A stretch of 53,564 bases of DNA, taken from the NCBI GenBank assembly GCA_012839805.1, contig DUMU01000027.1, positions 1 to 53,564 of the forward strand. Reading direction: 5' to 3'. Positions 3,071 through 53,564 of this stretch are shown piece after piece. The position numbers were made by a program, and so were the translations under genes. Under the pieces are notes generated by a model, which was not told where the DNA came from, searched no databases, and saw only the letters and a list, made by a program, of their open reading frames with translations. This DNA comes from Bacillota bacterium. GTDB lineage: Bacteria; Bacillota; Limnochordia; Limnochordales; DUMU01. Positions within the stretch are counted from its first letter, which is position 1. Each line of letters opens with the position of its first letter.

Positions 3071-3426
3071 GCGCTCCTCAACTCCTCCAGTAGCCGGCCG
3101 ACCTCCCGGACGGCTTCCACATCCTTGCGCAGCATACTCTGGATGAGGCGGTAGTTCATGTACTCGTAGAGCTGGAATAGCTGTGCTGCCAGCTGCCCGG
3201 CCTCGAAGTTGAGGGAACCGATCAGTTCGGCAAGGATATCCTGAACCCGGTACGTACGAGCCCGTGCCTCGGCCTCGTTGGCGGCTTCCCAGGCCGCAGC
3301 CGCCTGGCGCGCGTTGCGGATCGCCGCATCATAAAGAAGCAGGATGAGGCGGCCGGGACTGGCCGTTTCCACGGCGACCTGCTGGTACTGCTGCTGGTAC
3401 TGCTTATAGGCGCGGGGAAGAGTCAC
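3010..3426 (-). CDS. fliS: Flagellar export chaperone FliS
   Basis: The 138-residue protein has the FliS pattern: YKQYQQQYQQVAVETASPGRLILLLYDAAIRNARQA at the N-terminus, then LNFEAGQLAAQLFQLYEYMNYRLIQSMLRKD, matching the family's LD-x-LYxYMxxRLxxAN region. FliS binds flagellin in the cytoplasm, prevents premature polymerisation and passes it to FlhA. It starts with GTG at 3426 after an AAGGAAA-type ribosome site and lies directly downstream of fliD, as in most Firmicutes. In Bacillus FliS also links to the FliW-CsrA control of flagellin; both partners are encoded here. No flagellin gene is in the window. Confidence 0.95.
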   Translation of the reverse strand: MTLPRAYKQYQQQYQQVAVETASPGRLILLLYDAAIRNARQAAAAWEAANEAEARARTYRVQDILAELIGSLNFEAGQLAAQLFQLYEYMNYRLIQSMLRKDVEAVREVGRLLEELRSAWEQAVKEQQTSAAKPVQQP

Positions 3427-3459
3427 TTTCCTTGCCCCCTGATCATGCTATTCCCACGG

Positions 3460-4776: not shown

Positions 4777-4842
4777 CTCCCGCCCGCTCGACCCTCATTC
4801 CTCAGCGCCGGGCCCTCATCCAGGGCTTCCTTTGTTTCCTTT

Positions 4843-5250
4843 TCATCCGTCAACGAAAAGACCGACCCGATAGCCAATCCGCAAAGCCCATTCCAAAATC
4901 CGGTAGGGCGGGATTCGACGCAGGATCTTGCCGTTTTCTATGTCGATGATCTCAATCGAGAGTTCCTGACCGTCACTTCCGTCGTGGATCACGAAACGGA
5001 GCCGGGTATCGAAGACGAGCCGAATCGGCATGCGCATTCGTGGCCCCTCCGCCTGCCTGGAGGTCCGCCAGCCCGGAGCAGAGACCGGTTCTCCCTTCTC
5101 CGTAGCCGCCTTTACCGCGGCCAACGCCGGCTCAGTTCCAGTTCGCGCCCGAGAGTCCGGCCCGGGACGTTCGGGATATCTCTCCCGGGCTGACGAGGCC
5201 GCCCGGCGGACCGCCTCCACACCCTCCACCGGGTCAATCCGTCCCGGCAC
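4843..5250 (-). CDS. flaG: FlaG family flagellar protein
   Basis: The last 65 residues match FlaG/YvyC: LVFDTRLRFVIHD, then LSIEIIDIENGKILRRIPPYRILEWA. The conserved IPP motif near the C-terminus is the clearest mark. The first 70 residues are a charged, low-complexity tail, as is usual in this family. FlaG proteins are not fully understood; loss affects filament length in several species. The GTG at 5250 has a perfect AAAGGAGGTG ribosome site seven bases upstream, better than any neighbour's. The gene is between fliY and fliD. Confidence 0.9.
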   Translation of the reverse strand: MPGRIDPVEGVEAVRRAASSARERYPERPGPDSRARTGTEPALAAVKAATEKGEPVSAPGWRTSRQAEGPRMRMPIRLVFDTRLRFVIHDGSDGQELSIEIIDIENGKILRRIPPYRILEWALRIGYRVGLFVDG

Positions 5251-5283
5251 GTTTCACCACCTCCTTTAAGCCGGTTTCTCCCC

Positions 5284-6576
5284 TCAACGTATCGGCAACG
5301 GCCCGGGCTTCGATAAGGTCCGGGGAGCGGCGGCCGCCAGCCGTTCCGCACTACTGGCCAGGCTGGTGATGCGCACGGCGTAGTTTCCGTCGACCTCGAC
5401 GATCTGCCCGAACGCGATCAGGCGCCCGTTGGCCAGTACCTCGACCGGCTGGCGCACGTTCTGCTGGAGGGTGATCATGGCCCCGGGGCCGAGCCGGGAG
5501 ATCATTTCGAAGGGTAGCTCTGTCGTTCCCAACCGGACGGCAACCTCTAGCGGCACGTCACGGATCAATTCAATGCTGAGATTACCCAGGCCATCGTCGT
5601 CACGAGCCTGCGGTCGTCCGGCTGTCGCCGCACGCCTAGACCGTGCGTGCGGGGTCTTTTTGCCTGCCCGGGCTTCCTTGCCCCCGGCCTCCTCGCGCCG
5701 GCGCGTACTGCCTCTACCTCGGCGTTCTTGCCCGGCCGTCTCCCCGGCGGGTTCCCCCGCCGGGGAGACGGGGGCGGCCACCACCTCACCGGATTCCGCC
5801 ACGGAAGAGATGGCGGCCATCACTTCACCAGCTTTCCCCGCGCCGGGAGCAGTAGCCGTCGGCGCGCCGGCTTCCAACGCGGAGGTAGTACCTGGGGCGA
5901 TGGTTTCTGTTTCGGGAAGGGCCTCCCCAACCACAAGGCCTTGGATTTGCCAGAGCTCGCGCACCAGCCCCCGTGCTAGTTGGGGCTGGAGCACGAGCGC
6001 CATCCCGATTTCGATTCCCTCCCCGATCCTGACCAGGCAGCCGACCACGGTGGCGCGGGAGCTCGCCGGCTCACCGGCCGAGGCCCTCAACTCTACCAGC
6101 AAATCCTCTTGCCGTACCCGGCGCGCCCGGGGAGGCCTGATCACCACCGGGCGCTGCAGCAAAGTGGCGAGCGCGGTGGCTGCGGAGCCCATCATCTGGT
6201 TCATGACCTCGGCCAAAGTGCTAAGCGAAAGCTCGTCGTCGGGGGTGATCTCGTCGGCCATCTCCCCCAGGATCAGCCTGGCGAGCTTGAGCCCCCCTTC
6301 CTCGTCGATCACGAGCATCCCCGTGCCGCGCATTCCTTGCTCGAAGCGGATTTGCACCACGTAACAGGGGGTCGAGTAACGGGCGGCAAGCTCTTCCCAG
6401 GTCAGGATTTCGGCCGTGGGGACCGTCACCTGGGCCGGGCGATTGGTCAACACGGAGAGAGAAGTGGACGAGGCTCCCATCATTATTGAGCCGATCTCTC
6501 GAACGGTATCCACTTCGAGCGGGGACAAGTCCTCTTCGTGCCCGGTTGAACCCATCTCGATATCGTCTGCTGGCAT
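5284..6576 (-). CDS. fliY: Flagellar switch protein FliY (CheC-like phosphatase plus FliN domain)
   Basis: The N-terminal half carries two CheC-type repeats (REIGSIMMGASSTSLSVL and LAEVMNQMMGSAATALATLL; the E-x2-N pair is complete only in the second, EVMN). The C-terminal 80 residues are a FliN/SpoA domain (LSIELIRDVPLEVAVRLGTTEL...GQIVEVDGNYAVRI). Between them lies a long Ala/Gly/Arg-rich linker (about 245-340). FliY sits in the switch C-ring, binds FliM and can dephosphorylate CheY-P. An upstream TTG at 6627 overlaps the fliM stop, but the ATG at 6576 has GGGAGGAT six bases before it and is preferred. The gene is normally in the large fla/che operon with fliM; here both are between csrA and flaG. 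Confidence 0.92.
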   Translation of the reverse strand: MPADDIEMGSTGHEEDLSPLEVDTVREIGSIMMGASSTSLSVLTNRPAQVTVPTAEILTWEELAARYSTPCYVVQIRFEQGMRGTGMLVIDEEGGLKLARLILGEMADEITPDDELSLSTLAEVMNQMMGSAATALATLLQRPVVIRPPRARRVRQEDLLVELRASAGEPASSRATVVGCLVRIGEGIEIGMALVLQPQLARGLVRELWQIQGLVVGEALPETETIAPGTTSALEAGAPTATAPGAGKAGEVMAAISSVAESGEVVAAPVSPAGEPAGETAGQERRGRGSTRRREEAGGKEARAGKKTPHARSRRAATAGRPQARDDDGLGNLSIELIRDVPLEVAVRLGTTELPFEMISRLGPGAMITLQQNVRQPVEVLANGRLIAFGQIVEVDGNYAVRITSLASSAERLAAAAPRTLSKPGPLPIR

Positions 6577-6623
6577 CGCCGCATCCTCCCTGATCGGCGT
6601 AAGTGGGACTTGTGGGAAAAAGT

Positions 6624-7637
6624 TCAATCTTTTCGCGTTATCTCGGTGATCAGTAGGGCCAATTTCCCGCCGGCACTGCCCGGTTTGGCTCGGAAGAGGG
6701 GCTGCCCGCCCACTACCACTTCCGCCGGGTCACCCACCGCGACGGGAAGAAGCAGGAGGTCTCCCGGAGAGAGGGCCATCATCTCTCCCACGGTCAGATG
6801 GGTGCGGCCGAGAAAAGCTTCGACCCGGATCGGTGTACGCCCGAGGTGAGCCCGCAGTCGCACCCGTTCCGCCGGGTTCCCACCCTGATTGCGGTTGAGC
6901 TCCCGGGTAGCATCGGGGGCGAGCGCGACCAGGGCCGCGTAGGGTAGAGCCAGGCTGAAGCCGTCGCGGTAATCTCCAAACAGCCCTTCGAACGTGGCCA
7001 CCACCAGTAGCTCCTGATCGGAGCCCGTGCTCAGGAAAAACGGATTGGTCTCGAGACCCGCCGGGCGCACGTCCAGGGGTACGATCCCCCGCCAGGCTTC
7101 CCGAAGTGCCTCCACCATCGGCGTGAAGAACTGGCGTTGCAGAACGCGGCGCTCGAGCTCGGTCGGTTCACGGGCCTCCCGACCTTCCTGAGGCCGCCCC
7201 CCGCAGAGGCGGATGTAGGCAACCAGAGCGAGCTCCACGCTCATCTGGCAAAAGCAAGTTGCCACCACCTTCTCGGGTAAAGAGGCCGCGCTCAGCTGGA
7301 GAGTACTTACTATCGTGGGGTTCGGAAGGGAACGCATGTATTCGTACTGTGAGATCAACTGCAGGCCCGTGAGGTTCAAGGACACGTCAAACCGCAGGCG
7401 AACCGAGATCACGTTTCGCCACTTGCGGGCGAAATCTTCGTATACTTTCCGCAACAGGCGGATCTGATCGCGGGTGAGCTGGCGTGGTGCACGGAAATCG
7501 AACCGCTCTATCCGCCGGGCTCCTTCCCTCGCCAGTTTCTCTACCCCCGGCTCGCTTTCCGGCCCCGCCGGTTCTTTGCCCTTTTGACGAGCCAAAACCA
7601 GGCGGTCGATCTCCGCTTGACTCAGGATCTCGTCCAC
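6624..7637 (-). CDS. fliM: Flagellar motor switch protein FliM
   Basis: The 337-residue protein begins with the CheY-P-binding peptide (MDEILSQAEIDRLV), followed by the CheC-like middle domain (FDFRAPRQLTRDQIRLLRKVYEDFAR, then SQYEYMRSLPNPTIVSTLQL) and a C-terminal SpoA domain (about 250-335, VRLRAHLGRTPIRVEAFLGRTHLTVGEMMALSPGDLLLL). This is the full FliM layout and usual length. It forms the C-ring with FliG and FliY/FliN and sets rotation direction. The start is GTG at 7637 after AAGGAGG. The gene ends in a 4-base overlap with an alternative TTG start of fliY, so the two are likely translated together. Confidence 0.95.
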   Translation of the reverse strand: MDEILSQAEIDRLVLARQKGKEPAGPESEPGVEKLAREGARRIERFDFRAPRQLTRDQIRLLRKVYEDFARKWRNVISVRLRFDVSLNLTGLQLISQYEYMRSLPNPTIVSTLQLSAASLPEKVVATCFCQMSVELALVAYIRLCGGRPQEGREAREPTELERRVLQRQFFTPMVEALREAWRGIVPLDVRPAGLETNPFFLSTGSDQELLVVATFEGLFGDYRDGFSLALPYAALVALAPDATRELNRNQGGNPAERVRLRAHLGRTPIRVEAFLGRTHLTVGEMMALSPGDLLLLPVAVGDPAEVVVGGQPLFRAKPGSAGGKLALLITEITRKD

Positions 7638-7703
7638 ACGGGTCTCCCCCTCCTTACCAGGATCGGCGGAGAGGGAAGGAACCTGAAGCTGGCCCGGCCG
7701 GTC

Positions 7704-7994
7704 TTATCCGGGCGGCGCGGGTGCTCCCGGAGGCGCACTTGCCTCCCTCACCGGCTTGGTACCTGTGGCCAGCCGGGTAAGGTCATCCTGGGTCAGGTTG
7801 GCCCCGTCGGCCGGCAATGCGGCCCGCCGGTTTTCCTCCTGGATTTCCCGGTAGATCTCCTCCCGGTGAACCGGAATATGGCGAGGCGCTTCTATTCCCA
7901 GCTTGACCTGGTCGCCGCGCACCCCCACCACGGTGATCTTGATATCGTCTCCGATCATGATGCTCTCGTCGAGCTTACGCGTGAGAACCAGCAC
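7704..7994 (-). CDS. csrA: Translational regulator CsrA, with C-terminal extension
   Basis: The first 60 residues are a canonical Csr[37 protein letters not shown], then [20 protein letters not shown]. CsrA dimers bind GGA motifs in mRNA leaders, in Gram-positives mainly that of flagellin. GTG at 7994 is chosen because the family starts at this residue and AGGGAGG lies eight bases upstream. The open frame continues to 8027 but without a ribosome site. A 30-residue Ala/Pro/Thr-rich tail extends beyond the usual length. It sits directly after fliW, whose product sequesters CsrA. Confidence 0.95.
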
Positions 7995-8053
7995 CGCGAG
8001 TCCCTCCCTGGACCCCGCCCTTCGCACGGACCACCCGCCGCGGGCGCCCTTCC

Positions 8054-8518
8054 TTAGGCCGACGCACCGACTTCCTTGTCTTCCAGGTCTCCGCCGTCCC
8101 CCGCCGCCACCTCGACCGGCGACGTCACCGGCTTGCGCAAGGGGAAGCGCAGCGGGTACGCCTCCTCCAGGATCTCCTGCCGGCCCTGGCGCCGGACCAG
8201 GTCGATAACGAGAGGCGCCCGCAGGTTGGCCGTCATCTGGGCCGGGTCGTTGGGCACGGTGACGATACAGTATATGGCCGCACCTTCCTCATCGTTCGCG
8301 AGAGCTAGCTCGTAACCTTCGACGAACGAATTGGGATCCACAACGACGAATGCCAGCCCCGACCCGTCAACTGCCTGCAGGATACGAAACGGAGTCTCGC
8401 CCAACGGGATCAGTATGTACTGCTTGACTCCTTCGAATCCTATTATACCCCGCGGGAAGGTGATGATGTCTTCGGTAGCGTACGAGATCTCGCCCCACCA
8501 GTTCCGCACGGTCGGCAC
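8054..8518 (-). CDS. fliW: Flagellar assembly factor FliW
   Basis: The 154-residue protein shows the FliW pattern: [43 protein letters not shown], and [25 protein letters not shown]. FliW binds CsrA and blocks it from repressing flagellin translation until free flagellin displaces it. The GTG at 8518 has AGGAGG eight bases upstream. The last 25 residues are acidic and variable. It is adjacent to csrA, the conserved partner arrangement. Confidence 0.96.
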
Positions 8519-8584
8519 AGTCTTTTGCCTCCTATCCCGATTCCCGATCCCGACGTCCCGTCGCCACCCGCCACCGGGTGAACT

Positions 8585-9433
8585 TCAGCGCAACCAGTCA
8601 ACCAGCGAGAAACGTTCCAGCCGGGCAGTAACCATCAACGTGGCCTCATAGGTAGCCTCCTGCTGCCGGAGCTCCGTCAGGGCAGCGGCGAGGTCGAAGC
8701 CGTCGGTGTCCGCAAGATTGCTCTCGAGTCGCACCTTGAGATTTTGGAGCTGCTCCTCGGTCCGCTCCACCCGGGCGGAACGAGCACCGACCTTCGCCCG
8801 TGCCCTGGCCACCAGCTCGATGGCGGCGTCCACTTTCGCCAGCCCTTCCGTGCGCAACCACTCCCCGGTCGCCGGGTCGCCGGGATCCAGATGGGCAATG
8901 ATCGCGTCTAAAGCAGGCAGCACCTGGTCGCCGGTGGTCGCCCCGGCACCACCGAACACGTCTTGCCGCTTGACGTTGACCACAACTGTTACCCCGGGGG
9001 CAATGACGCGCTGGACTTCCACGTCGCCGAAGAGCGAACTACCATTGTACTGCCCGTTGGCAATATCTTGCATCTCTTCCCTGATCTGGTCAATCTCGGT
9101 TCCTATCGCCGTTCGGTCCGCCTCGTTCAGGGTATCGGACGCGGCCAGCACCACGAGCTCGCGGACCCTCAACAGGAGTTGGCCGGCCCTGCCCAGGGCC
9201 GCGTCCGTCTCATCCAACCATGCCTTGGCGGCGGCGGCCTGGGTGCGGTACCCGTCTACGGCCGCCCGGACCTGATCAAGCCGCAATAGCTCCGGCATTC
9301 GTTCCGGGGAATCGTGGGGATACAAGAGGTTCCGGCCGCTCGCGATCCGAGCGGTGAGTTCACGGTTACGCTCCGCATGATCGGCCAGAGCTCGCTCTAC
9401 CAACCGTCTCGTAATGAGGGGCGTTATGCGCAT
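8585..9433 (-). CDS. flgL: Flagellar hook-filament junction protein FlgL
   Basis: The 282-residue protein has a flagellin-like N-terminus (MRITPLITRRLVERALADHAERNRELTARIASGRNLLYPHDSP) and a flagellin-like C-terminal helix (about 225-275, ESNLADTDGFDLAAALTELRQQEATYEATL). The middle region (about 100-205) includes DTLNEADRTAIGTEIDQIREEMQDIAN, the FlgL/flagellin core. FlgL joins FlgK to the filament. The ATG at 9433 has GGAGG eight bases upstream. Flagellin itself was considered but the size, position after flgK and lack of a hypervariable core favour FlgL. Confidence 0.9.
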   Translation of the reverse strand: MRITPLITRRLVERALADHAERNRELTARIASGRNLLYPHDSPERMPELLRLDQVRAAVDGYRTQAAAAKAWLDETDAALGRAGQLLLRVRELVVLAASDTLNEADRTAIGTEIDQIREEMQDIANGQYNGSSLFGDVEVQRVIAPGVTVVVNVKRQDVFGGAGATTGDQVLPALDAIIAHLDPGDPATGEWLRTEGLAKVDAAIELVARARAKVGARSARVERTEEQLQNLKVRLESNLADTDGFDLAAALTELRQQEATYEATLMVTARLERFSLVDWLR

Positions 9434-9448
9434 TCTCTTCGCCTCCGC

Positions 9449-10852
9449 TTACCGGCCCGCTCCGCCCAAAAGCTCTATCACCGTGCCTAACGCCTGATCC
9501 AGCGCGCGCACCAGCTGGGCCGCGGCCGCGTAGGCCTTCTCCGTGGCCACGAGCGCAATCATCTCCTCGTCCGGCGAGACCCCCACTTCCGACTGGCGAA
9601 TTGCCTGGAGGTGAGTCACCCGGTCTTCCGCCGCCATTCGGGCCCGCTCCGCCGCCCGGCTCCACTCACCCGCTCGAGCCACGATCTCGTTGCGATAAGT
9701 CTCTAGTGGATGTGGCTCGGTTGCCCCGGTGCTCTCGTCGCCCGGCGAGCCCTGCAACCACAGAAGCCAAGCCCTGATCTGGTCCTCGCTCGCCTGAAGC
9801 TGGGAGGGATTCTCCAGCAACTCGGGGTGCACCGTCAGGTTCTCCGCCACCGAGGGGCCTGCCGTGGTAGAAAAGAGTTCGACTCCCAACAGCTCGAGGG
9901 TCTTCTCCTGGAGAGCTTTCGCCATGGCTTCCAATGTCCATCGGAGAGTGCCGGGTTCATCAGGCCCACCAAGCTTGCCTTGGACGTCAAGATGGGCCTC
10001 GAGCATGCCACTTTGGCCGGCCAGTTCCTTTTCCAGGTCTATGGAGCGCCAGTAGTCGTCCAGGTCGGGGATAACCGTGTCGCCCTGAACGAGGATCTTA
10101 CCATTCAGTTCGATCCGGAGGTCCGGCTCGTCCTTGGTGTCGGAGGCGGCCTCCCGCACCGTGAAGGGAGCAAATGCGGATAGTTCCCTCAGGATGGCGT
10201 CCCGGCGGTCCCGCAGATCGTTGGCATACCGGGTCTCTCCGTAGGCTCCAAAACCCCGTTCGGCCTGGCGGATCGAGCCGTTCAACCGGGCCAGCTCGCG
10301 GAGAAGTTCTTTTACTCGTTCAATGCCTCGATCGAGTGCCTCCTGTTCGGACTGCTTAATCTCGTTCAAACCCTGGGCAAGCCTGCGGATCCCGGCCGCC
10401 AGATCGCTCGCTCGCTCCACCACCACCCGGCGAACACCGTTATCATCGGGTCGACCCGTCCACTCCAGCACCGCCTGCTCCAGGTCGTTCCACAGGCGGC
10501 TGATACTTCCGGCGCCCGACGGTTCATCGAGAAGGTCCTCCAGCGATCTCCAGACTTTCTCCATGGCTTCCGCCGCGTCCCGTTCGGCGGTGGCCTGCCG
10601 CAGCCGGCGTTCCACCAGCTGGTCCCGCTCCCGGACCACGCCGGCCACCCGGGGGGCGGCCCCGTTCACCGGCCCGCTCCGGGCCGCTACGCCTCCGGCC
10701 GACCATGCCCCCGGGAGGCTTTGTCTCACCACTCGCCGGCGGGAGTAGTGGGGATCGTCGGCGTGAGCCAGGTTTTCGGCGATGGTCTCCAGGCTCCGGC
10801 TCTGGGTGTTGAGAGCCTGGCTCGCCAAACCCAATGTGTGCAAGAGCGACAT
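9449..10852 (-). CDS. flgK: Flagellar hook-associated protein FlgK
   Basis: The 467-residue protein begins with the rod/hook signature LLHTLGLASQALNTQSRSLETIAENLAHADDPHYSRR, a variant of the family's ALNVTGHNIANANTPGYSRQ. It ends with the FlgK C-terminal helix (SEVGVSPDEEMIALVATEKAYAAAAQLVRALDQALGTVIEL). The start at 10852 is preferred over the frame's upper limit at 10942 because it begins at the conserved helix and has AAAGGGG upstream. The protein is shorter than many FlgK (540-600). The -24-residue N-terminal motif has DDP where most have NTP, so it is somewhat divergent. Confidence 0.93.
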   Translation of the reverse strand: MSLLHTLGLASQALNTQSRSLETIAENLAHADDPHYSRRRVVRQSLPGAWSAGGVAARSGPVNGAAPRVAGVVRERDQLVERRLRQATAERDAAEAMEKVWRSLEDLLDEPSGAGSISRLWNDLEQAVLEWTGRPDDNGVRRVVVERASDLAAGIRRLAQGLNEIKQSEQEALDRGIERVKELLRELARLNGSIRQAERGFGAYGETRYANDLRDRRDAILRELSAFAPFTVREAASDTKDEPDLRIELNGKILVQGDTVIPDLDDYWRSIDLEKELAGQSGMLEAHLDVQGKLGGPDEPGTLRWTLEAMAKALQEKTLELLGVELFSTTAGPSVAENLTVHPELLENPSQLQASEDQIRAWLLWLQGSPGDESTGATEPHPLETYRNEIVARAGEWSRAAERARMAAEDRVTHLQAIRQSEVGVSPDEEMIALVATEKAYAAAAQLVRALDQALGTVIELLGGAGR

Positions 10853-10865
10853 GGACTTGCCCCTT

Positions 10866-11216
10866 TCAGGCCCGAAGGTCCAGAGAAGGCGTGGCGGCCA
10901 GCGAAAGGAGGCGTAACTGCCCCCGGACGATGGCCAGTTCATCTTCGGCTAGCCGCCGGCAGACGGCCAGGTCGGCGCGGATTCGCTCTAGGTGGTCCTC
11001 CCACCTGTTGGCAGCGGTGTGCTCACCGGCAACCGCCGGCCCCGGCTCTGCCGCGCCGGGGATGGCCGGCGCGGTATTTCTCATCGTCGACTCGAGTTCG
11101 GCCAGGAGAGAAGGTATGGTCTTGAGGAGCCTTTGGAGGGCTGAAAGGTCCCTCGTTACCAGTGCCTTGCGCAGGGCACTGACTTCTTGGGCCAGCTCGT
11201 CCCAGGGCACGGTCAT
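10866..11216 (-). CDS. flgN: FlgN-like flagellar export chaperone
   Basis: A 116-residue all-helical protein just upstream of flgK. Helices run about 3-45 (WDELAQEVSALRKALVTRDLSALQRLLKTIPSLLAELEST) and 68-112, joined by a Pro/Ala-rich loop. FlgN proteins chaperone FlgK and FlgL to the export gate. Sequence similarity within this family is always low, so size, helicity and the flgM-flgN-flgK order carry the call. Confidence 0.75.
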   Translation of the reverse strand: MTVPWDELAQEVSALRKALVTRDLSALQRLLKTIPSLLAELESTMRNTAPAIPGAAEPGPAVAGEHTAANRWEDHLERIRADLAVCRRLAEDELAIVRGQLRLLSLAATPSLDLRA

Positions 11217-11257
11217 CCAACCCTTCGTCCCGAAGTGGGCCGGGCGAAGGCAAGCTG

Positions 11258-11593
11258 TTACTTCAACCGATCCGCCAGGATCCGCCCTAGCATTTTGTCG
11301 GCGATATCGCGGCTATCGACCCGATACTTACCCTGCTGAATGGCGGCGCGCAGTTCCGCCACCTTGTCCGCTCGTACGTCCGGTTCCGCTTCGATCCGCT
11401 GGCGCAGTTCCTGAACCAGCCTGGCCTGGCGTGAGATCGTTACCTGATCGCCGGCAGGCTGGTCGACCCGGGCCAGCCTCTCGGCCCGCCGGCTTTCCGC
11501 CGGCGGCTCGATACGGTAGACCCGGGAGACATTCTCGATCTCCTGGCGGGAGATCCTCACATTCATCCCCTCCATTCGCTCCGGCCCATTCAC
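11258..11593 (-). CDS. flgM: Anti-sigma-28 factor FlgM
   Basis: The C-terminal half matches FlgM: DQVTISRQARLVQELRQRIEAEPDVRADKVAELRAAIQQGKYRVDSRDIADKMLG, with the typical VRxxKVxxLRxxIxxGxYxVd pattern. FlgM holds the flagellar sigma factor SigD/FliA until the hook is complete and FlgM is exported. The start is not certain: ATG codons at 11593, 11575 and 11566 are possible, the last two behind GGAG or GGAGGGG. The N-terminal part is disordered in the family. Located between comF and flgN as in Bacillus. Confidence 0.93.
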   Translation of the reverse strand: MNGPERMEGMNVRISRQEIENVSRVYRIEPPAESRRAERLARVDQPAGDQVTISRQARLVQELRQRIEAEPDVRADKVAELRAAIQQGKYRVDSRDIADKMLGRILADRLK

Positions 11594-45492: not shown

Positions 45493-46080
45493 TTGACCTA
45501 CGTCTGGGCCTTCCTGGTGCTGGCCGGCCTGGCAGTAATGGCGGCCAACGGTTCTCCCGACGAGATCACCCGGACGCTGCTTGCCCAGGCACGCAGCGGC
45601 TTGCAAGCTTCCTTCGATCTTTTGGCGGTGGTAGTCCTGTGGCTCGGAATCAGCCGGATAGCGGAAAAGGCCGGTCTCCTGCCCGCGCTGGCCCGGCTCG
45701 TCGCGCCGCTTCTTCGCCGGCTCTTCCCCACCCTCCCGCCCGACCATCCCGCCCTCGCCCCCATGGCTATCAACCTCACCGCGAATTTCCTCGGTCTCGG
45801 CAACGCCGCCACGCCCTTCGGGCTCCAGGCCATGAAGGAACTGGGGAAGACCAACCCGGTCCCGGGACGGATCACCCCGGCCATGACCACTTTCTTGGTT
45901 CTGAATAGTGCCTGCGTCACCGCCGTTCCGGCCACCGCCATCGTCCTGCGGGCGGCCATGGGTGCCTCCCATCCCGCTGCGATTGCCTTCCCCGCCGCGC
46001 TCGCTTCCCTGGCCGCCGCCACCACCGTGGTGATCGCGGACGCGCTCTGCCGGCATTTTCCGCCCCGGAGGCGGCCGTGA
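45493..46080 (+). CDS. spmA: Spore maturation protein A
   Basis: The 195-residue membrane protein matches SpmA: MTYVWAFLVLAGLAVMAANG, LLAVVVLWLGISRIAEKAGLL, and the signature MAINLTANFLGLGNAATPFGLQAMKEL with SACVTAVPATAIVLRA after it. It carries the nucleoside-recognition (gate) domain. SpmA and SpmB are needed for proper spore core dehydration in Bacillus. The start is TTG after GGGGGAG. It overlaps spmB. Confidence 0.95.
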   Translation: MTYVWAFLVLAGLAVMAANGSPDEITRTLLAQARSGLQASFDLLAVVVLWLGISRIAEKAGLLPALARLVAPLLRRLFPTLPPDHPALAPMAINLTANFLGLGNAATPFGLQAMKELGKTNPVPGRITPAMTTFLVLNSACVTAVPATAIVLRAAMGASHPAAIAFPAALASLAAATTVVIADALCRHFPPRRRP

Positions 46081-46595
46081 ACCTCGCCGCCTGGCTCATA
46101 CCGGTGCTGGTGGCCGCCGTCATCCTGGCGGCCTTGCGGCGTGGGGTCAACGTTCTCGAGGCCTTCGTCGAAGGCGCCGGTCACGGCCTGGTCCTCGTCT
46201 ACCAGCTTGCCCCCTACATAATCGCAGTCTACCTTGCCATTGGCCTGGTCCAGGAGTCCGGGCTCCTGCAATGGCTCGCCCATGCCCTCGACCCCGTACT
46301 CACCCGGGCCGGGCTCCCCGCCGCCCTGTTGCCGCTCCTCATCGTACGCCCGCTCTCGGGTAGTGCGTCCCTCGCCGTGATCACCGAGATCCTGCGCACT
46401 TACGGCCCCGACAGCCTGGTGGGTGTAATGGCCTCCATCATGCAGGGAAGCAGTGACACAACCTTTTACGTGCTCACCGTCTATACCGGTGCTGCCCGCG
46501 TCCGGGAGACCGGGCGAGCCCTTCCCCTCGCCCTGCTGGGAGATCTCGTAGGTTTTGCCGCCGCGATCTACCTCGCCCGCCACTGGCACTTCTGA
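46077..46595 (+). CDS. spmB: Spore maturation protein B
   Basis: The 172-residue membrane protein matches SpmB: LIPVLVAAVILAALRRGVNVLEAFVEGAGHGLVLVYQLAPYIIAVYLAIGLVQESG, and the signature RPLSGSASLAVITEI plus MASIMQGSSDTTFYVLTVYTGA. It pairs with SpmA. It starts with GTG that overlaps the spmA stop (GTGA), so the two are translationally coupled. Confidence 0.95.
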   Translation: MNLAAWLIPVLVAAVILAALRRGVNVLEAFVEGAGHGLVLVYQLAPYIIAVYLAIGLVQESGLLQWLAHALDPVLTRAGLPAALLPLLIVRPLSGSASLAVITEILRTYGPDSLVGVMASIMQGSSDTTFYVLTVYTGAARVRETGRALPLALLGDLVGFAAAIYLARHWHF

Positions 46596-46984: not shown

Positions 46985-48532
46985 TCAGGGAGCAAGGGGG
47001 ATACTGATCCGGACCGAGGCGACCAAAGAGGTCTGGCCACTACCTCCCAGACCCGTGCGGTCGTGCTCCACTCCCACCTCCACGTTAACCTTCATGTCGC
47101 GCCAGTTGAGGCTCTGGCCCACGCTGATACGAACCTTTTGCTGCTCCGAGCTGGTCCCCGCTTGCTGCGGGACAACTGGCTGGCCTTCGCCGGCCTGGCG
47201 GATGAAGCGAACTTCACCGTAGGTGGAGACGGTAGCCTGGACGGAGACCGTGGTCTGGTCCCCCCCGGGTTCACCGGCGGCCAGCACGGCTTTGACCGGC
47301 ACCCGGGCAACTTGAGCCGCCGCTTCCTCGCCGGCCTGGCCGTTCCCGGCGACCCGGCGCGCGGCTTCCTCTAGGGCCTCGCGATCCACCGCCATACCGA
47401 ACCGCAAAGGGAAGACCCAGGCCGGCAACGCCACCGGCCGCGTGCCCTGCCAGCCGACCCGGACCACCAGGAGTTCGCTCCCCGGACCCAACCAAAACCC
47501 CAGCGGCTGGCCGTTCAGATAATAACTGTTTGCAGGGTTGGTATCCTTATAAACATTGGGGCTCGTGCGCGCGTATTCCACCTGGATCTGCTGCGTCCCC
47601 TCCGCCTTGCCCGGGTTAACGACCAAATCCTTCTGCCACCCGAGAAGCCACGCGCTACGATCCCAGGTTGAACTCCCCGCCTCCGGGCGCCCCCCGCCCG
47701 TGTCTCCCCGGCCAGATCCGGGAGCCAGGTAGGGTGGATCGTCCAGGAAAAGCTCCCCGTACAGCCGGCCGCCTCCGGGCAACTCGAGGCTGGCATCCAA
47801 TCCTAGATTCTCATTCATCTCTCCCGCTGAACCATCTTCACCGCCGGCCAGCCACTGCCAGAATCCTTGAGGAACAAAGGGGAAGAAGTATTCGGGTCGC
47901 CAGGGAAAGCTGCCACGAACCGAAGCGGTCTCCGTGACCCCCAGCTGGAAACGACTGGTTGCGTTAAGCAGCCCCTGCCATTCCCAGCGCCGGGCCAACA
48001 GGAAGCGACCGTCCTGCCAGTCGAGGGCCGCTACCCCCTGGCGGTAATCCAGCGAAGAGCGAGAGTAATCCACCAGGAGCCAATCGAGCGGGGTAGCGCT
48101 TCCCAGTGTGAGCTGGCCGAAGCGACCCGGACCCCAACTTACGGCCTGCCGGCCGAGGGTGGGACGGAGCGTGCCTCCCGCCAGGGCCAACTCCCCTCCG
48201 TCGAGCAGCGTTTCGAACACTTTGTCTATCTGGGAACTTACCCCGGAAGGAGCGCTGGAAGCGCCGGCGCCGGTCTGGTTGCGGGCGGCAGCCTCCGCCT
48301 GCCTCCAGACGGGCGACTGCACCGGCTCCAGGGGGATCCGCACCACCGTTTCGAGCTCCACCTTACCGGTGACCACCGTCCCCGTCGCGGCCGGAGAAGA
48401 CGGCAGAGCCCCGGTTTGTCCCCAAGCCGGGTTAACCCCGGCGGCAAGGCCCGAGAGAAAGAATGACAGAAAGCCGGGGAGGATGCCTGCCAAAACCCAC
48501 CGGGACGACTTTTTCGACCAGCCCGTGATCAA
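46985..48532 (-). CDS. Wzi-like outer-membrane beta-barrel protein
   Basis: The 515-residue protein has a signal peptide (about 10-38, WVLAGILPGFLSFFLSGLAAGVNPAWG) and a beta-rich body typical of the capsule-assembly Wzi family: TLRPTLGRQAVSWGPGRFGQLTLGSATPLDWLLVDY, then amphipathic strands ending in VNVEVGVEHDRTGLGG and VRISIPLAP at the C-terminus. Wzi is an outer-membrane lectin that holds polysaccharide at the surface. Such barrels need an outer membrane. Starts with TTG, GGGAGG eight bases before. It is last in the export cluster. Confidence 0.8.
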   Translation of the reverse strand: MITGWSKKSSRWVLAGILPGFLSFFLSGLAAGVNPAWGQTGALPSSPAATGTVVTGKVELETVVRIPLEPVQSPVWRQAEAAARNQTGAGASSAPSGVSSQIDKVFETLLDGGELALAGGTLRPTLGRQAVSWGPGRFGQLTLGSATPLDWLLVDYSRSSLDYRQGVAALDWQDGRFLLARRWEWQGLLNATSRFQLGVTETASVRGSFPWRPEYFFPFVPQGFWQWLAGGEDGSAGEMNENLGLDASLELPGGGRLYGELFLDDPPYLAPGSGRGDTGGGRPEAGSSTWDRSAWLLGWQKDLVVNPGKAEGTQQIQVEYARTSPNVYKDTNPANSYYLNGQPLGFWLGPGSELLVVRVGWQGTRPVALPAWVFPLRFGMAVDREALEEAARRVAGNGQAGEEAAAQVARVPVKAVLAAGEPGGDQTTVSVQATVSTYGEVRFIRQAGEGQPVVPQQAGTSSEQQKVRISVGQSLNWRDMKVNVEVGVEHDRTGLGGSGQTSLVASVRISIPLAP

Positions 48533-48595
48533 ACCTGACGCCTCCCTTCCCTGTGCGGGCGTCCCGTAACGTCACCGCAGCCGGCTGGGGGTTGG

Positions 48596-49456
48596 CTAGC
48601 GCGCCGGCCTGGTTGCCCGGGGCCGCTGTGGAAAGAAGAACCGGCGCCAGCCCGCCCGCACCGATCGGGGCCGGCCACGGGAATCGATAGGAATGGGTTC
48701 GACGGCGGCCACATATTCTCCTGCCAGAACATGGCTGGGCCACTCGCAACCGATCAGTCGTGCTTGTTCTCTGCCCGCCACGGCCTCGATCGTACGCAGG
48801 GCCGCCTCGAGCCGTGGCGGCCGGCGCTCGGGGTCGTGACCGTCACTGCCCAAGAGGTGGGTCAGCCCGTGGCGCAGAAAAAGCAGGGCTGCGTTCTGGA
48901 CGGGCTCCCCGAAGCGCCCGGTCAGGCTTTCCGCGTCCACCTGCGTCATGACCCCCTGGGCAACCAGTTCATAAAGGAGATAAGGATGTTCCTGGAGATA
49001 GGTGTTTCGTTCCGGGTGAGCGAGCACGGGGACGATACCATGAAGCAGGAGCTCGAAGCAGACGGGGGCAACATAGTTGGGATAACTGTAGAAGGGCAGT
49101 TCGGTGAGGACGTAACGGCGCTCCCCCCGCACGGTAAGGGAGGGTTGCCCGGTCAGAACCTCCACCAGGTCGGGCCGGAAGGTGACTTCGGCGGCAAGAT
49201 GGAGCCGGAGCGGAAGGTTCCGGCGGAGGATAGCCTCCTGCAAGCTTCGGAAGGATTGGATCACCGCCTCCTCGGCCGGCGAATAGGTGTCGTGCAGGGC
49301 ATGCGGGGTAGCCACCACGTCAGTAATTGCCTCGGCCACCGCTACCTCGGCCATGGCCAGTGCTTTTTCCAGCGTATCCGGGCCATCGTCCACGCCCGGT
49401 AGGAGGTGACAGTGGAAGTCTACTTTCCGAGGGCCAAGCGATGGACGCGCATCCAC
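48596..49456 (-). CDS. CpsB/CapC-type PHP tyrosine-protein phosphatase
   Basis: The 286-residue protein is a PHP-family phosphatase: KVDFHCHLLPGVDDGPDTLEKALAMAEVAVAEAITDVVATPH (metal motif HxH and the second H), AAEVTFRPD, LAHPERN, and GSDGHDPERRPP. In capsule systems it removes phosphate from the tyrosine-rich tail of the BY-kinase. The start is GTG with a GGGGGGAG stretch about ten bases upstream. The C-terminal 35 residues are basic and extra. It follows the kinase by a few bases. Confidence 0.93.
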   Translation of the reverse strand: MDARPSLGPRKVDFHCHLLPGVDDGPDTLEKALAMAEVAVAEAITDVVATPHALHDTYSPAEEAVIQSFRSLQEAILRRNLPLRLHLAAEVTFRPDLVEVLTGQPSLTVRGERRYVLTELPFYSYPNYVAPVCFELLLHGIVPVLAHPERNTYLQEHPYLLYELVAQGVMTQVDAESLTGRFGEPVQNAALLFLRHGLTHLLGSDGHDPERRPPRLEAALRTIEAVAGREQARLIGCEWPSHVLAGEYVAAVEPIPIDSRGRPRSVRAGWRRFFFPQRPRATRPAR

Positions 49457-49463
49457 TTTGATG

Positions 49464-50255
49464 CTACTCCCCCCGGCGCGGCGAACGGGACGGTTGCGAG
49501 GTTACGTGACTCGGGTCCTCATCCCGCGGGGTATCAACGGAGGCGGCCGCCTCGGAGCGGGCGTCGCTGCCCGCGGCGTGGCGGTAATAGTAATAGTAGT
49601 AATAGCCGTAACGACCGCCCCGCATTTGCACGTCATTCAGGATGACGCCGAGAATCCTGGCTCCCACCCTTTGCAGATTGAGCCGGGCTTGCCTGGCCGC
49701 CTCCCGGTCGGTGTGGCCGGAACGAACGAGGAGAATCACCCCGTCCACCCGCGGGGCGAGTACGGCCGCGTCAGTGATCGCGACCACCGGCGGGGCGTCG
49801 AAAAGAGCCAGGTCGTACATCTCCTGCAGGCGAGCGATTATCTCCCCCATCGCCGCGGAGCCCAGCAGTTCAGAAGGGTTGGGAGGAAGCGGGCCCGACC
49901 CCAGGAAGGAGAGGTTTTCGATGCCGGTCGGCTGGATCGCCTCTTCCAGAGGAACCGTACCTAGGAGGACGTTGGTGAGACCCACCCGCTCCGGCCGGTT
50001 GAGGAGCCGGTGCAACGCCGGGCGTCGCAGGTCAGCATTGACCAGGAGCACTTTGCTCCCCGCCTGGGCCATCGCCACCCCCAGGTTGGCCAGGGCCGTC
50101 GTTTTGCCCTCGTCCGGACCGGCACTGGTGATGAGCAGGGTGCGCAACGCGTGTCCTACCGCTGCAAACTGGATATTGGTGCGCAGGGTCCGGTAGGCCT
50201 CTGCCACCGGCGACTTGGGCTGATGGTGTACTATCAGCATGTCTTCCTGGGCCAA
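49464..50255 (-). CDS. Tyrosine-protein kinase of the CpsD/CapB (BY-kinase) family
   Basis: The 263-residue protein has the BY-kinase nucleotide motifs: TSAGPDEGKTTALANLG (Walker A), VLLVNADLRRPALHRLL (Walker A prime) and YDLALFDAPPV (Walker B). The tail has a tyrosine cluster YGYYYYYYYR at about residues 221-230, the autophosphorylation sites. It works with the Wzz/Wzc-type partner to regulate polysaccharide polymer length. The start is TTG with GGGGAG six bases upstream. It is directly after the chain-length gene. Confidence 0.94.
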   Translation of the reverse strand: MAQEDMLIVHHQPKSPVAEAYRTLRTNIQFAAVGHALRTLLITSAGPDEGKTTALANLGVAMAQAGSKVLLVNADLRRPALHRLLNRPERVGLTNVLLGTVPLEEAIQPTGIENLSFLGSGPLPPNPSELLGSAAMGEIIARLQEMYDLALFDAPPVVAITDAAVLAPRVDGVILLVRSGHTDREAARQARLNLQRVGARILGVILNDVQMRGGRYGYYYYYYYRHAAGSDARSEAAASVDTPRDEDPSHVTSQPSRSPRRGE

Positions 50256-50256
50256 C

Positions 50257-51795
50257 TCATTCTCCCCTTCCCGGCCGGCCGCGGTGCGCTCGGGATCGCC
50301 CGCTCCGGCGTCGAAACGTAAACCAGCTCCGTACCCCCGACGTGCTCCAACCCCCGGCGGCGCTCGCCTGCGCTTCGACGATAGACGGGATCAGGCCCAG
50401 GACGGGTAGCTCTAGCTCTCGTTCCACGTCCTCCTGGGTCTTGAGGGAGGTGTCGAGGAACTCGAGCAGGAAAGCCACTCCTACCCCGGCCAAGAGGCCG
50501 AGCATGAGAGCGATGGCCAGGTTCAGCTTCACCCGGGGGCTGACCGGGGAGGTGGGACGAACCGCCGGGTCGATGACCCAGACGTCGGATATCTGCATGT
50601 TTTCGGCGATGCGGGTCTCCTCGTAACGGGTACGAAGCATCATGTAAACCTGCTCGTTCACCTGCACGTCACGGTTGAGTCGTGCCAGCTCCAGCTCCTT
50701 TTGGGGCAGGCCGTTCAGGACGGCATTGTTTTGCTGGATCAGCCTGGCCAGCGCATCACGCCGGGCTTCGAGAGAAAGGATGTCGGTCTGCAAGTTGAGC
50801 AGCTTTTCGAGAAGTGCCTGATAGACCGGGTTGAGCGATTCGGTTTCCGAAGGAACGACCTTAGCCACTTCCTTCGCCAGCTGGTCCCGCACCTGTTGGA
50901 TCTGGGCCTTCAGATCGAGCACGCGGGGATGCTGCTCGGTGAACTGCTCCTGAGCCCCGGCGAGCTGGGTCTCCAGGTCGGCCAGGCGCGTCCGGTAATA
51001 CTGGATCATGGGGTTATCGGCGATCTGCCGCGCGGTGACCAGCGTTTGGGGCTGGGCCTGAAGCTGCTTTTCCACCTCCCGCCGGCTTTCCTCCGCCTGG
51101 TGTAGATCCACTTCCGCCTCCGCCCGCATGGTTTCCAGCTCGGCTATCTTGTTGAGCAGGACTTTCGTCTCCTCGGTGGGGGAAATCACCTTCGAACTCT
51201 CACGGAAGCGCAACTGCAGGTCCTCGGCCTGGCGAAGCTGGGCCTGCACCTTGGGCAGCTGCTCTTCGATAAAGGCAAGGGCGCTGCGGGTCCCCCGGCG
51301 GTTGTATTCCTCGCTCAACTGCTGGAACGCGGTGACCAGCGCGTTGGTGGCCTGTTGGGCGAAATCCGGATCCTGGGAACGGACCGTCACTTTGATCGTG
51401 TCGGTACCCTGGATTGGCTGAACCTGGACGTTCCCAGACAACTCCGCAAAACGCGGGTTGCTCGATTCGGCCGGTATTCCCAGCAGGCCGGCGGCCCGGC
51501 GCACTATCTCCCTACTGCGCAGGATGGCCGCGTAGTTTTGCAGGGGGTCTTTGGCCCCCGCCAGGAAACCTTCCGGCGTGAACGGAAGCTGCGTCGTTTG
51601 CGACGAGGAACGAATCAGTATGGTGGCCGATGATTCGTATATCCTCGGGCTCATACTGGTAGCCAGCACGGCACCGATGAGCGCCACCAGGACGAGCGCC
51701 AGTATCTCCCACTTGCGCCGGATCAGCACTTCGAGGTACTGCCGCAGGTCTATCTCCATTTCCTGGGCCTCGATAGCCCCCGCCCGTTCGCTCAC
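50257..51795 (-). CDS. Wzz/Wzc/GumC-type polysaccharide chain-length protein
   Basis: The 512-residue protein has an N-terminal membrane segment (about 30-47, WEILALVLVALIGAVLATSM), a Wzz domain, a long periplasmic coiled coil (about 170-410), a PxxP region (VIDPAVRPTSPVSPRVKLNLAIALMLGLLAGVGVAFLLEFLD) with the second membrane segment, and a cytoplasmic end. The kinase is a separate gene, as in Gram-positive CpsC/CpsD, but the long coiled coil resembles the Gram-negative GumC/Wzc type. Start is GTG at 51795, with an ATG 12 codons in as an alternative. Confidence 0.94.
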   Translation of the reverse strand: MSERAGAIEAQEMEIDLRQYLEVLIRRKWEILALVLVALIGAVLATSMSPRIYESSATILIRSSSQTTQLPFTPEGFLAGAKDPLQNYAAILRSREIVRRAAGLLGIPAESSNPRFAELSGNVQVQPIQGTDTIKVTVRSQDPDFAQQATNALVTAFQQLSEEYNRRGTRSALAFIEEQLPKVQAQLRQAEDLQLRFRESSKVISPTEETKVLLNKIAELETMRAEAEVDLHQAEESRREVEKQLQAQPQTLVTARQIADNPMIQYYRTRLADLETQLAGAQEQFTEQHPRVLDLKAQIQQVRDQLAKEVAKVVPSETESLNPVYQALLEKLLNLQTDILSLEARRDALARLIQQNNAVLNGLPQKELELARLNRDVQVNEQVYMMLRTRYEETRIAENMQISDVWVIDPAVRPTSPVSPRVKLNLAIALMLGLLAGVGVAFLLEFLDTSLKTQEDVERELELPVLGLIPSIVEAQASAAGGWSTSGVRSWFTFRRRSGRSRAHRGRPGRGE

Positions 51796-51888
51796 TCCCC
51801 GTTACCCCCTACTGCGCCTCTACCATGACGTACCTGCACCGTCACCGCTTACCCGCACTCATACCCCTTACCCGGACCCATACCCTGG

Positions 51889-53564
51889 TTACAGTCCGAG
51901 CAGGTCCTTGAAGAGCTTGATCCCGCTTAAGAAACTGAAGATCTTCTGCCAGTCGGGCTTGCCGGTCTCGGGCACGTATATGATGTCACCCGGCTGGATG
52001 AGCGGATTCTCCCGAGCATCGCCCTGGAAGACGAGCCGATCCTTGCCTAGGCTATAGGTGGTGGACTGCCGGGGATCGCCCCCCCGGTAGATACCCACCG
52101 CCTCCAGCGCGGCCCGTTCCGTCGGCCCGCCGGCCAAGCCGATCGCGTCCATCACCCGCATCCCGGGCTGGATCGTGTAAAGCCCAGGGTTGCGGACCTC
52201 TCCAAGCACCAGTACCTGGCGGAGCGCCTCCGGGAGGTAGACCACGTCACCCGGCTGTAGCACCAGGTTGGCTTCCGGGCTTCCCGTGCCCAAGATATCG
52301 GTGTAATTGACCGTAAACAACCGCTCGGGCGTCTCCTGGCCCGCGGTCACCCGCCGCAGCACCGTGATTGCCTCTACCCGGGCGTCCGGCGACGGTCCTC
52401 CCGCAAGTGCAATGAGATCCAGGAGGCGGGAACCCGGCGGCAGGGTGTAAGCGCCCGGGCGTGCCACCTTCCCCAATATCGCCACCTGGCGAGCCGGAGG
52501 CAGGTAGAGAACGTCACCCGGCTCGAGCAGCTCGTTCTCGTCGCTCGCCGGGTTCGCCAGGAGCCGAGCGAGGTCCAGGACCTTTTGAACCGGTGGTTCG
52601 CCGCGCCGGGTGAGCGTTAGCGCCGGATAATCGGCCTGCTCGGTGGGCCCGCCCGCCGCCGCCAGAGCATCCAGCACTCGGGCCCCCGTTTTCAACGTAT
52701 AGGCACCGGGTGAACGTACTGCACCGTAGACCAGCACCCGTCGTTCTCGCTCCGGGACGTAGATGACATCACCGCCGCGAACCCGCCGGTTGGCAGGCCC
52801 CGCCGGGTCGGCCAGGGCCGCTTGGGCATCCACTTCCTCGGTGAACGAAGGTTCAGCCGACGTAAACTGAACTCGCGCCAGATCCGCCGCCTCCAGCGGG
52901 CCGCCGGCCGCGGCCAGGGCCTGCACCAGGGTAGCCGGCTCGTCCAGAACGTAACTGCCGGGAACACGTACCGCTCCGAGCACGGCCACCGCCTGCAGGC
53001 GTCGTGGTACCACGATGACCTCTCCGCCCCGCAGTACCCGATTGGCCTCGTTACCGGGGTTGGCCAGGAGGACGTCTAGGTCAAGCCGGTCCATGCGCCC
53101 TCCCCGGCTCAAGGTTACCTGCCGCCGATCGGCCGGGGCCGTAAGTCCTCCGGCCTGAGCTATCGCGTCGAGCACCGTCATCCCGGGCTGCACGGGGTAC
53201 TGCCCGGGCCGGGTTACCTCGCCCAGCACCGTCACCTGTTGCCGGCCTTGGGGCACGTACAGGATGCTCCCGGCCGGAAGCAGGACGTTAGCCGCCCCAC
53301 CCGGATCCCGCACCGCCGCCTCCAGATCGAGCGTGGTTGTTTTCCCTTCTACGGGATCGGTCAGCGTTACCGCCCCGAGATCGGCATCGGGTAGAGTCCC
53401 GCCCGCCGCCGCGATCACGTCCACCAAACGCATCCCCGCCCGCCAGGCATAAGCCCGCGGCGCCCGTACCTCCCCCAGAACCACCACCTCGGGTGGCCCC
53501 TCCGGGAGATAGATAACGTCCCCGGGAATGATCTCCACGTTCTCCGCCGAAGCCGGATCCTGGA
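51889..53564 (-). CDS. Multi-SLBB polysaccharide export protein (partial at right edge)
   Basis: The frame has no start in the window: before the GTG at 53538 it continues in-frame to the right end (QDPASAENVEIIPGDVIYLP). At least six SLBB-type repeats of about 85-90 residues are visible, each with GDVIYLPE-like and VLGEVRxPGxYxxxxGxxVLDAIAxAGG patterns. SLBB repeats bind carbohydrate and, in Wza, form part of the outer-membrane export channel, usually two per protein. The C-terminus ends in a short amphipathic segment (WQKIFSFLSGIKLFKDLLGL). It heads the export cluster. How many repeats and whether a signal peptide is present is unknown. Confidence 0.92.
   Translation of the reverse strand, partial: QDPASAENVEIIPGDVIYLPEGPPEVVVLGEVRAPRAYAWRAGMRLVDVIAAAGGTLPDADLGAVTLTDPVEGKTTTLDLEAAVRDPGGAANVLLPAGSILYVPQGRQQVTVLGEVTRPGQYPVQPGMTVLDAIAQAGGLTAPADRRQVTLSRGGRMDRLDLDVLLANPGNEANRVLRGGEVIVVPRRLQAVAVLGAVRVPGSYVLDEPATLVQALAAAGGPLEAADLARVQFTSAEPSFTEEVDAQAALADPAGPANRRVRGGDVIYVPERERRVLVYGAVRSPGAYTLKTGARVLDALAAAGGPTEQADYPALTLTRRGEPPVQKVLDLARLLANPASDENELLEPGDVLYLPPARQVAILGKVARPGAYTLPPGSRLLDLIALAGGPSPDARVEAITVLRRVTAGQETPERLFTVNYTDILGTGSPEANLVLQPGDVVYLPEALRQVLVLGEVRNPGLYTIQPGMRVMDAIGLAGGPTERAALEAVGIYRGGDPRQSTTYSLGKDRLVFQGDARENPLIQPGDIIYVPETGKPDWQKIFSFLSGIKLFKDLLGL

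Follow-up and report, generated by a model that had tools for sequence, protein, structure and literature searches.

A giant SLBB-repeat OPX protein in a putative polysaccharide export module at the outer-membrane locus of a spore-forming member of the Limnochordales

Does a spore-forming Firmicute that carries outer-membrane-type export proteins beside a kinase and a phosphatase of Gram-positive type have an outer membrane for a polysaccharide to cross, and do these genes together encode an exporter? The question is raised by one end of contig DUMU01000027.1 (C13), which was analyzed over its entire 53,564 bases and is referred to here as the window. The contig belongs to a metagenome-assembled genome (MAG) of 2.78 Mb in 51 contigs (96.4% complete, 0.92% contamination). 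The MAG was searched for a 16S gene and none was found; the host is a member of the Limnochordales (class Limnochordia), placed by kinship with the relatives of its family. For comparison we used the other two MAGs of that family (G001 and G002) and a survey of 73 Limnochordia genomes. Gene neighborhoods were read from stretches of genomes, among them 28 further stretches around the export gene from beyond the window's family, in some of which that gene is cut or split. We consider it likely that the host is a diderm endospore former of the Limnochordales in which these genes provide the export half of a polysaccharide pathway of the Wzx/Wzy type, with a giant outer membrane polysaccharide export (OPX) protein, a polysaccharide co-polymerase (PCP), a separate kinase, a PHP phosphatase, and a Wzi-like barrel.

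Five genes at the end of the window form a putative export cluster

Five minus-strand genes occupy the last 6.6 kb of the window. In the direction of transcription, the first is for an SLBB protein and is cut by the contig end; it is followed by genes for a Wzz/GNVR co-polymerase, a tyrosine kinase, a CpsB/CapC-type PHP phosphatase, and a 515-residue protein. A preliminary description of this DNA had placed such a set here (SLBB, Wzz/GumC-like, kinase, PHP phosphatase, and Wzi-like genes), and it was found in that place, with the Wzi label falling below threshold. The family assignment is clear for the first four proteins, of which the SLBB protein is a fragment, and the fifth matches the Wzi family weakly. 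Both relatives have the identical five-gene order.

The first gene (51889..53562, minus strand) encodes the C-terminal 557 amino acids (aa) of a giant OPX protein of the Poly_export-SLBBn type. The fragment comprises six SLBB repeats (Pfam, E=3.9e-77) and a conserved C-terminal segment, PETGKPDWQKIFSFLSGIKLFKDLLGL, and it scores 274 bits, over the cut-off, with the NCBIfam EpsE model. The PCP gene (50257..51795, minus strand) encodes 512 aa without a fused kinase and matches the Pfam Wzz (3.2e-13) and GNVR (4.6e-20) families; its score with the NCBIfam XrtA-system chain length determinant, 220 bits, lies under the cut-off of 279, and its nearest neighbors among solved structures are PslE and Wzc. 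Next is a stand-alone BY-type tyrosine kinase (49464..50255, minus strand; Pfam AAA_31/CbiA) with a Walker A motif, GPDEGKTT, a C-terminal tyrosine cluster, YGYYYYYYY, and a score of 206 bits with the TIGR01007 tyrosine autokinase model (cut-off, 108); the nearest solved structure is CapAB of S. aureus (1.6e-49). The phosphatase (48596..49456, minus strand) is a CpsB/CapC family member (PF19567, 2.1e-48; 165 bits against a cut-off of 27). The last gene (46985..48532, minus strand) encodes the 515-residue protein, which has an N-terminal signal-like segment and is a distant, predicted relative of the Wzi outer-membrane barrels (PF14052, E=0.0075, below the cut-off).

The kinase/phosphatase set is CpsBCD-like, as had been proposed. 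It had also been set against the outer-membrane proteins as a contradiction, which is not a real one, because PHP phosphatases are not exclusive to Gram-positive bacteria: P. gingivalis has one as well, Php1 (PMC6759763).

The OPX gene probably continues into an outer-membrane locus on a second contig

An SLBB export protein had been named for this cluster and is present, although its gene is incomplete in the window, with its likely first half at the end of contig C10. The sole Poly_export domain of the genome (C10:98448-98666, 87.6 bits) lies there in an 887-aa frame that contains seven SLBB repeats and runs off C10 in the direction that matches the window's end. When aligned with the intact 1,592-aa OPX protein of G002, the C10 fragment corresponds to residues 64-799 and the window fragment to residues 1033-1592, and because of the gap between them about 235 aa of the host's own protein are unsequenced. 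The ends of C10 and C13 are most simply explained as two halves of a single OPX gene, which would therefore join the window to the outer-membrane locus on C10. The gene is rich in repeats, the type of place where an assembly would break. In both relatives, Poly_export (PF02563) is followed by the SLBB repeats within one open reading frame.

The OPX N-terminal half ends a locus on C10 that contains, in order, BamA, OmpH, LpxD, LptF/G, an LptD-like protein, LptC, LptA-like proteins, LpxC, a FabZ-like protein, LpxA, LpxI, an LpxB-like protein, MsbA, a second LptF/G, and an OmpM-type protein with an SLH domain, a stalk, and a barrel. The Omp85 protein BamA scored 304 bits with TIGR03303, over the cut-off, as did OmpH, LpxD, and LpxA with their models, and LptC reached 24.7 bits (cut-off, 21); the homologues of LpxC, LpxI, MsbA, and LptF/G were below equivalog cut-offs. 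A search for LptD, which the preliminary description had proposed along with one for BamA, was answered in part. An LptD-like protein of 803 aa follows one of the two LptF/G-type genes (E=0.004, below the cut-off), and PF04453 (LptD) gave no match in the genome, a model that detected just 2 of 14 controls and misses most diderm ones. Judged by gene content (BamA together with lipid A and Lpt genes), the organism is predicted with confidence to be diderm. The suggestion that it is "probably diderm" is thereby upheld, with BamA, the Lpx and Lpt genes, MsbA, and OmpM-like SLH barrels all in the same genome.

Some further features of this locus were noted. It encodes two LpxB-related proteins (L009:8214-9608 and L009:11445-12794), LpxB-like at 27 bits and TIGR03492 "lipid-A-disaccharide synthase-related," and at the corresponding place G002 carries one more LpxB-like gene, of 394 aa (L012:6149-7333). 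BamA is adjoined by a protein containing a domain of the SpoIVB peptidase S55 type (L008:9096-11390, E=2.8e-7).

Sporulation genes accompany the cluster. Outside the exporter, on the plus strand, the window encodes an SpmA-like (45493..46080; PF07670, 6e-13) and an SpmB-like (46077..46595; PF07670, 5.6e-13) Gate-domain protein. The window also has a YtaF protein at 126 bits (cut-off, 149.6), and all three are much as described before. A Spo0E-like protein is also there, its Pfam score just short of the cut-off, so that this marker is confirmed in likeness rather than in score. SpoIVA, found in the genome at 363 bits, over the cut-off, supports the prediction that the host is an endospore former.

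That the outer-membrane genes or the cluster reached the genome by contamination of the MAG is a reading to which we give almost no credence. The window is one contig of 51. The estimated contamination is 0.92%, the gene order is kept in the two other MAGs of the family, and the exporter module occurs class-wide; in addition, the cluster shares its contig with the adjoining SpmA/B-like genes, and G002 too has an SpmA-like gene in that place. A diderm, spore-forming host is also in keeping with what is known of the class: such Limnochordia were already established by Taib et al. (2020) and Watanabe et al. (2016), as these are cited in PMC11456536, and didermic walls have been shown in two cultivated relatives (PMC11456536). 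The inference drawn from the window is right and is not new for Limnochordia.

The module is conserved across the class and is set apart from glycan synthesis genes

In most of the class stretches that reach far enough, the order is a DUF3084-like gene, an OmpM-like stalk barrel, a RuvX-like gene, a second SLH barrel-like gene, a signal-peptide protein, OPX, PCP, kinase, and CpsB, followed in part of the stretches by a ParB-like protein. Throughout the Limnochordia, OPX and PCP, in most cases accompanied by kinase and phosphatase, lie downstream of OmpM-like barrel genes. The exceptions are L056, without kinase and CpsB beside PCP, and L057, L058, and L073, without CpsB there. Two neighbors of OPX were recorded separately. 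One is the ParB-like protein (ParB_N plus helix-turn-helix; L006:3545-4708, L007:12790-13821, L059:14922-15818), a DNA-binding protein in an envelope operon, whose gene stands before OPX in the window's family and after CpsB elsewhere. The other is the conserved signal-peptide protein of 300 to 350 aa that precedes OPX class-wide (L015:4033-4971 and orthologues), for which Pfam gave a weak TrbI match alone; it is possibly an unrecognized component of the exporter or of the outer membrane.

The cluster had been called capsule type, and this label does not hold in its usual sense. No glycosyltransferase operon adjoins the exporter in the host's genome, nor does a flippase or polymerase; the cluster is the end of a class-wide outer-membrane locus and not a usual capsule locus. 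On contig C32 there is a Wzy-type cluster, which encodes glycosyltransferases, a DegT aminotransferase, and a Wzy_C protein. It also has WecA-like, UDP-glucose dehydrogenase-like, and epimerase genes; of these, the WecA-like gene and those for UDP-sugars were recognized by eye from the sequence.

OPX/PCP systems of characterized bacteria export capsule or exopolysaccharide. The polymer could nevertheless be something else, O-antigen-like, S-layer associated, or another envelope glycan, and this seems to us quite possible, if somewhat short of an even chance. The export genes lie within the core outer-membrane locus and not in a variable capsule locus, genes of UDP-glucuronate type were seen by eye in the unlinked cluster, and cultivated relatives have S-layers (PMC11456536). 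The function of the characterized systems argues the other way, as does the fact that no ligase was identified.

The OPX protein is unusually long and its central repeats vary

The intact OPX proteins of the relatives are 1,592 aa (G002; Poly_export and 16 SLBB repeats) and 1,512 aa (G001; 15 SLBB repeats) long. In the host, 13 SLBB repeats were read (7 on C10 and 6 in the window), and a total of about 16 is inferred. The pitch of the repeats is about 84 to 98 residues; between species, most of those near either end can be paired one to one, and the central ones cannot. A Poly_export match was obtained in 42 of the 73 class genomes, one per genome, and complete-looking OPX genes in the 28 further stretches have 5 to 14 SLBB repeats (5 to 16 when the window's family is included). 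A published survey gives 1 to 14 SLBB domains in class 1 OPX proteins and 1 to 7 in class 3 (PMC9603273), a range that 15 to 16 repeats exceed. OPX lengths elsewhere span 138 to 1,728 aa (PMC9601211), so that the size is extreme but not unprecedented, and giant length alone is not new.

Among near relatives the repeat number shifts fast: L067 (G032) has 7 in a group with 12 to 13, and L086 (G043) has 7, whereas its sister L063 (G034) has 12. In L057 (G063) and L058 (G062), from one genus of a neighboring family, OPX is apparently split into two adjacent frames, of about 385 to 399 aa with Poly_export and of 471 to 593 aa with 5 SLBB repeats; a frameshift common to both, genuine fission of the gene, or an error of gene calling could each account for this.

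Could the repeats serve a structural end? OmpM stalks in Limnochordia are about 190 to 330 residues long, compared with about 85 in Veillonella OmpM1 (construct residues 22 to 107; PMC10628300). Over 17 genomes the SLBB number correlates with stalk length (Spearman, 0.75; independent contrasts, r=0.62, p=0.008, 16 contrasts). The stalk ends of L067, L070, and L087 were adjusted by eye ahead of the contrasts, the test was conceived after the data had been seen, and the tree lacks PCP sequences from 4 of the 17 genomes, which makes the analysis exploratory. L086, with 7 SLBB repeats and a stalk of 259 residues, is a counterexample. The correlation is a lead to a wider idea, attractive and weakly supported, which we think unlikely as it stands: that the number of SLBB rings tracks periplasm width in Limnochordia, that OPX arrays and OmpM stalks both measure an unusually wide envelope, and that the tube lengthens or shortens in evolution as central repeats are gained or lost. 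If this were true, some 7 to 16 SLBB domains would amount to some tens of nanometers when stacked in rings as in Wza, and the OmpM stalks to 28 to 49 nm when helical throughout.

A stronger version, in which the array is mainly structural, bridging the envelope or reading the width of the periplasm with export secondary or lost, appears improbable to us. It would fit the span of 5 to 16 repeats with conserved ends and a variable middle, and the covariation with OmpM tether stalks between families. No correlation was seen within families (computed before the three stalk ends were set by hand), however, and the signs of the contrasts divide 8 to 5. Moreover, PCP adjoins OPX in nearly every stretch, usually with kinase and phosphatase, as in exporters.

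The route across the outer membrane

An AlphaFold2 (AF2) model of the window part of OPX, built from three sequences (predicted local distance difference test [pLDDT], 70.7; predicted template modeling score [pTM], 0.34, at which interdomain geometry is unreliable), best matched Wza (2w8h/2j58) and the Wza-Wzc complex. A C-terminal segment, PETxKPDWxxIF..., is conserved across the class and is predicted, at low pLDDT, to form a helix. The candidate reading of this terminus as an amphipathic Wza-like helix found no support in the hydrophobic moment test. Neither mark of class 1 (Wza-like) OPX proteins, Wza_C or a significantly amphipathic outer-membrane helix, was found in the protein. It also differs from the class 3 proteins that work with a partner barrel: Wza_C is absent and a barrel gene lies no more than five genes away, but the OPX proteins of the relatives have 1,512 to 1,592 aa as opposed to 280 or fewer.

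The 515-residue protein had been predicted to be a Wzi-like barrel. Its AF2 model, from five sequences, does come out as a beta-barrel, with about 14 strands and at low confidence (pLDDT, 47.5); the Wzi fold is an 18-stranded barrel with a helical plug. The best fold match was E. coli Wzi (2YNK; Z, 12.2; 3.3 Å over 224 residues; Foldseek, E=2e-4). OmpM1, OprB, and Occ porins followed at Z values of 11 to 12 (porins, 10 to 12), and AlgE (10 to 11) and BcsC were matched too; matches within one Z unit were counted as tied. Nearly all of the top matches are outer-membrane barrels. At the sequence level, PF14052 had no match at an E value of 0.001 anywhere in the host's genome and gave sub-threshold matches alone elsewhere among the class genomes; a sequence profile made from the Wzi-like family found nothing in the Protein Data Bank. 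A tblastn search with the alignment of the Limnochordales family retrieved two proteins that are clear members of the Wzi family, PF14052 (L025 and L026; 75 and 45 bits); they come from unrelated MAGs and share the motif WGPGRFGQL with the 515-residue protein. Among the class genomes the gene is confined to the window's own family. The model supports a beta-barrel for which the Wzi type is favored, not proven.

These data bear on a composite translocon, in which OPX would be purely periplasmic, in the manner of class 3, and the pore would be the Wzi-like barrel (in the window's family) or the conserved upstream SLH barrel-like protein (in the class). We regard this as possible, with the balance tilted against it. 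OPX has no Wza_C, barrel genes lie within five genes of it in the window's family, and an SLH barrel-like gene stands two genes upstream class-wide; AlgE and BcsC, both exporters, are among the matches of the 515-residue model, and OPX/barrel translocons have been described (PMC9601211, PMC9603273). Published coupled barrels pair with short OPX proteins, however, 93% of them with OPX of 280 aa or fewer, and the best fold match, Wzi, serves as an anchor without which export still proceeds (PMC9601211). The predicted helix-forming C-terminal segment, conserved throughout the class, counts against it too.

Other genes of the window

The MetQ protein had been described as lacking a lipobox, and there is indeed no Cys near its N terminus. 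Close to the window start (3010-11593) lies a flagellar gene set (FliS, FliD, FlaG-like, FliM/FliY, CsrA, FliW, FlgL, FlgK, and FlgM-like, named by eye); therefore, flagella are probably present now, or were formerly, in the organism.

Discussion

The cluster is best read as a Wza/Wzc-like trans-envelope exporter with a split, Gram-positive-style co-polymerase and kinase and an elongated periplasmic OPX protein. Several observations weigh against this reading. The continuity of C10 and C13 comes from synteny and direction, not from reads. On the side of OPX, Pfam Wza_C (PF18412) had no match up to an E value of 10 on the C-terminal segments, and their hydrophobic moment does not exceed that of shuffled sequences, so that they are not significantly amphipathic. 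The 515-residue protein reached 15.7 bits with PF14052 (gathering score, 30.1), its model is of low confidence, and, unlike BamA and the host's OmpM-like proteins, it does not end in an aromatic residue. As for synthesis, Pfam confirmed no flippase (a 571-aa candidate had no match) and no PF02397 initiating transferase was found.

In the mechanism we propose, the glycan would be made by the unlinked Wzy-type cluster on C32, started by the WecA-like transferase. The inner-membrane PCP, cycled by kinase and phosphatase, would dock the OPX oligomer and pass the chain on. Stacked rings of SLBB domains may form a long conduit through the periplasm, and some 16 such domains could alone bridge a wide one; the Wza-Wzc complex forms a continuous 360-Å channel (PMC12881504). 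The outer membrane would be crossed by way of the C-terminal helices of OPX itself or a partner barrel, and in the window's family the Wzi-like barrel may bind or pass the polymer at the surface.

Comparison with known systems brings out what is particular here. The Poly_export/SLBB OPX protein, GNVR PCP, BY-type kinase, and Wzi-type barrel recall the E. coli group 1 exporter Wza-Wzc with Wzi; in contrast to it, there are probably about 16 SLBB domains and not 2, no Wza_C, a kinase unfused from PCP, and a PHP phosphatase in place of a Wzb-type enzyme, and the genes stand in an outer-membrane biogenesis locus and not with glycan genes. The separate kinase, PHP phosphatase, and chain-length protein resemble CpsBCD (CapABC) of S. 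pneumoniae and S. aureus, but PCP has a long central region with GNVR and is partnered with OPX and an outer membrane. M. xanthus EpsY/EpsX and V. cholerae VpsN/VpsM likewise combine an OPX protein without Wza_C with a nearby beta-barrel gene; those OPX proteins have about 200 aa, as against about 1,500 here, and the barrel here is nearest to Wzi, not to the AlgE/PgaA type. The nearest NCBIfam models come from EpsE/EpsF (OPX, over the cut-off) and XrtA (PEP-CTERM) systems (PCP, below it), although the stretches examined have no exosortase context and the SLBB repeats are many more. Finally, BamA, OmpH, Lpx, FabZ, Lpt, and OmpM genes occur together as in the diderm Firmicute cluster of Taib et al. 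(2020), as far as it is cited in PMC11456536; compared with that account, the cluster here, at least in Limnochordia, ends in an OPX exporter module.

The exporter module is real and well conserved in a known diderm, spore-forming class, and its distinctive features are the repeat number, the split regulatory set, and the location within the outer-membrane locus. Regulators of Gram-positive style stand beside OPX in a diderm organism and are tied genetically to outer-membrane assembly. Limnochordia are among the few Firmicute lineages that have retained an outer membrane, and their envelope genes therefore bear on how Gram-positive bacteria lost it. In cultivated members, the number of SLBB repeats offers a simple, testable handle on periplasm width.

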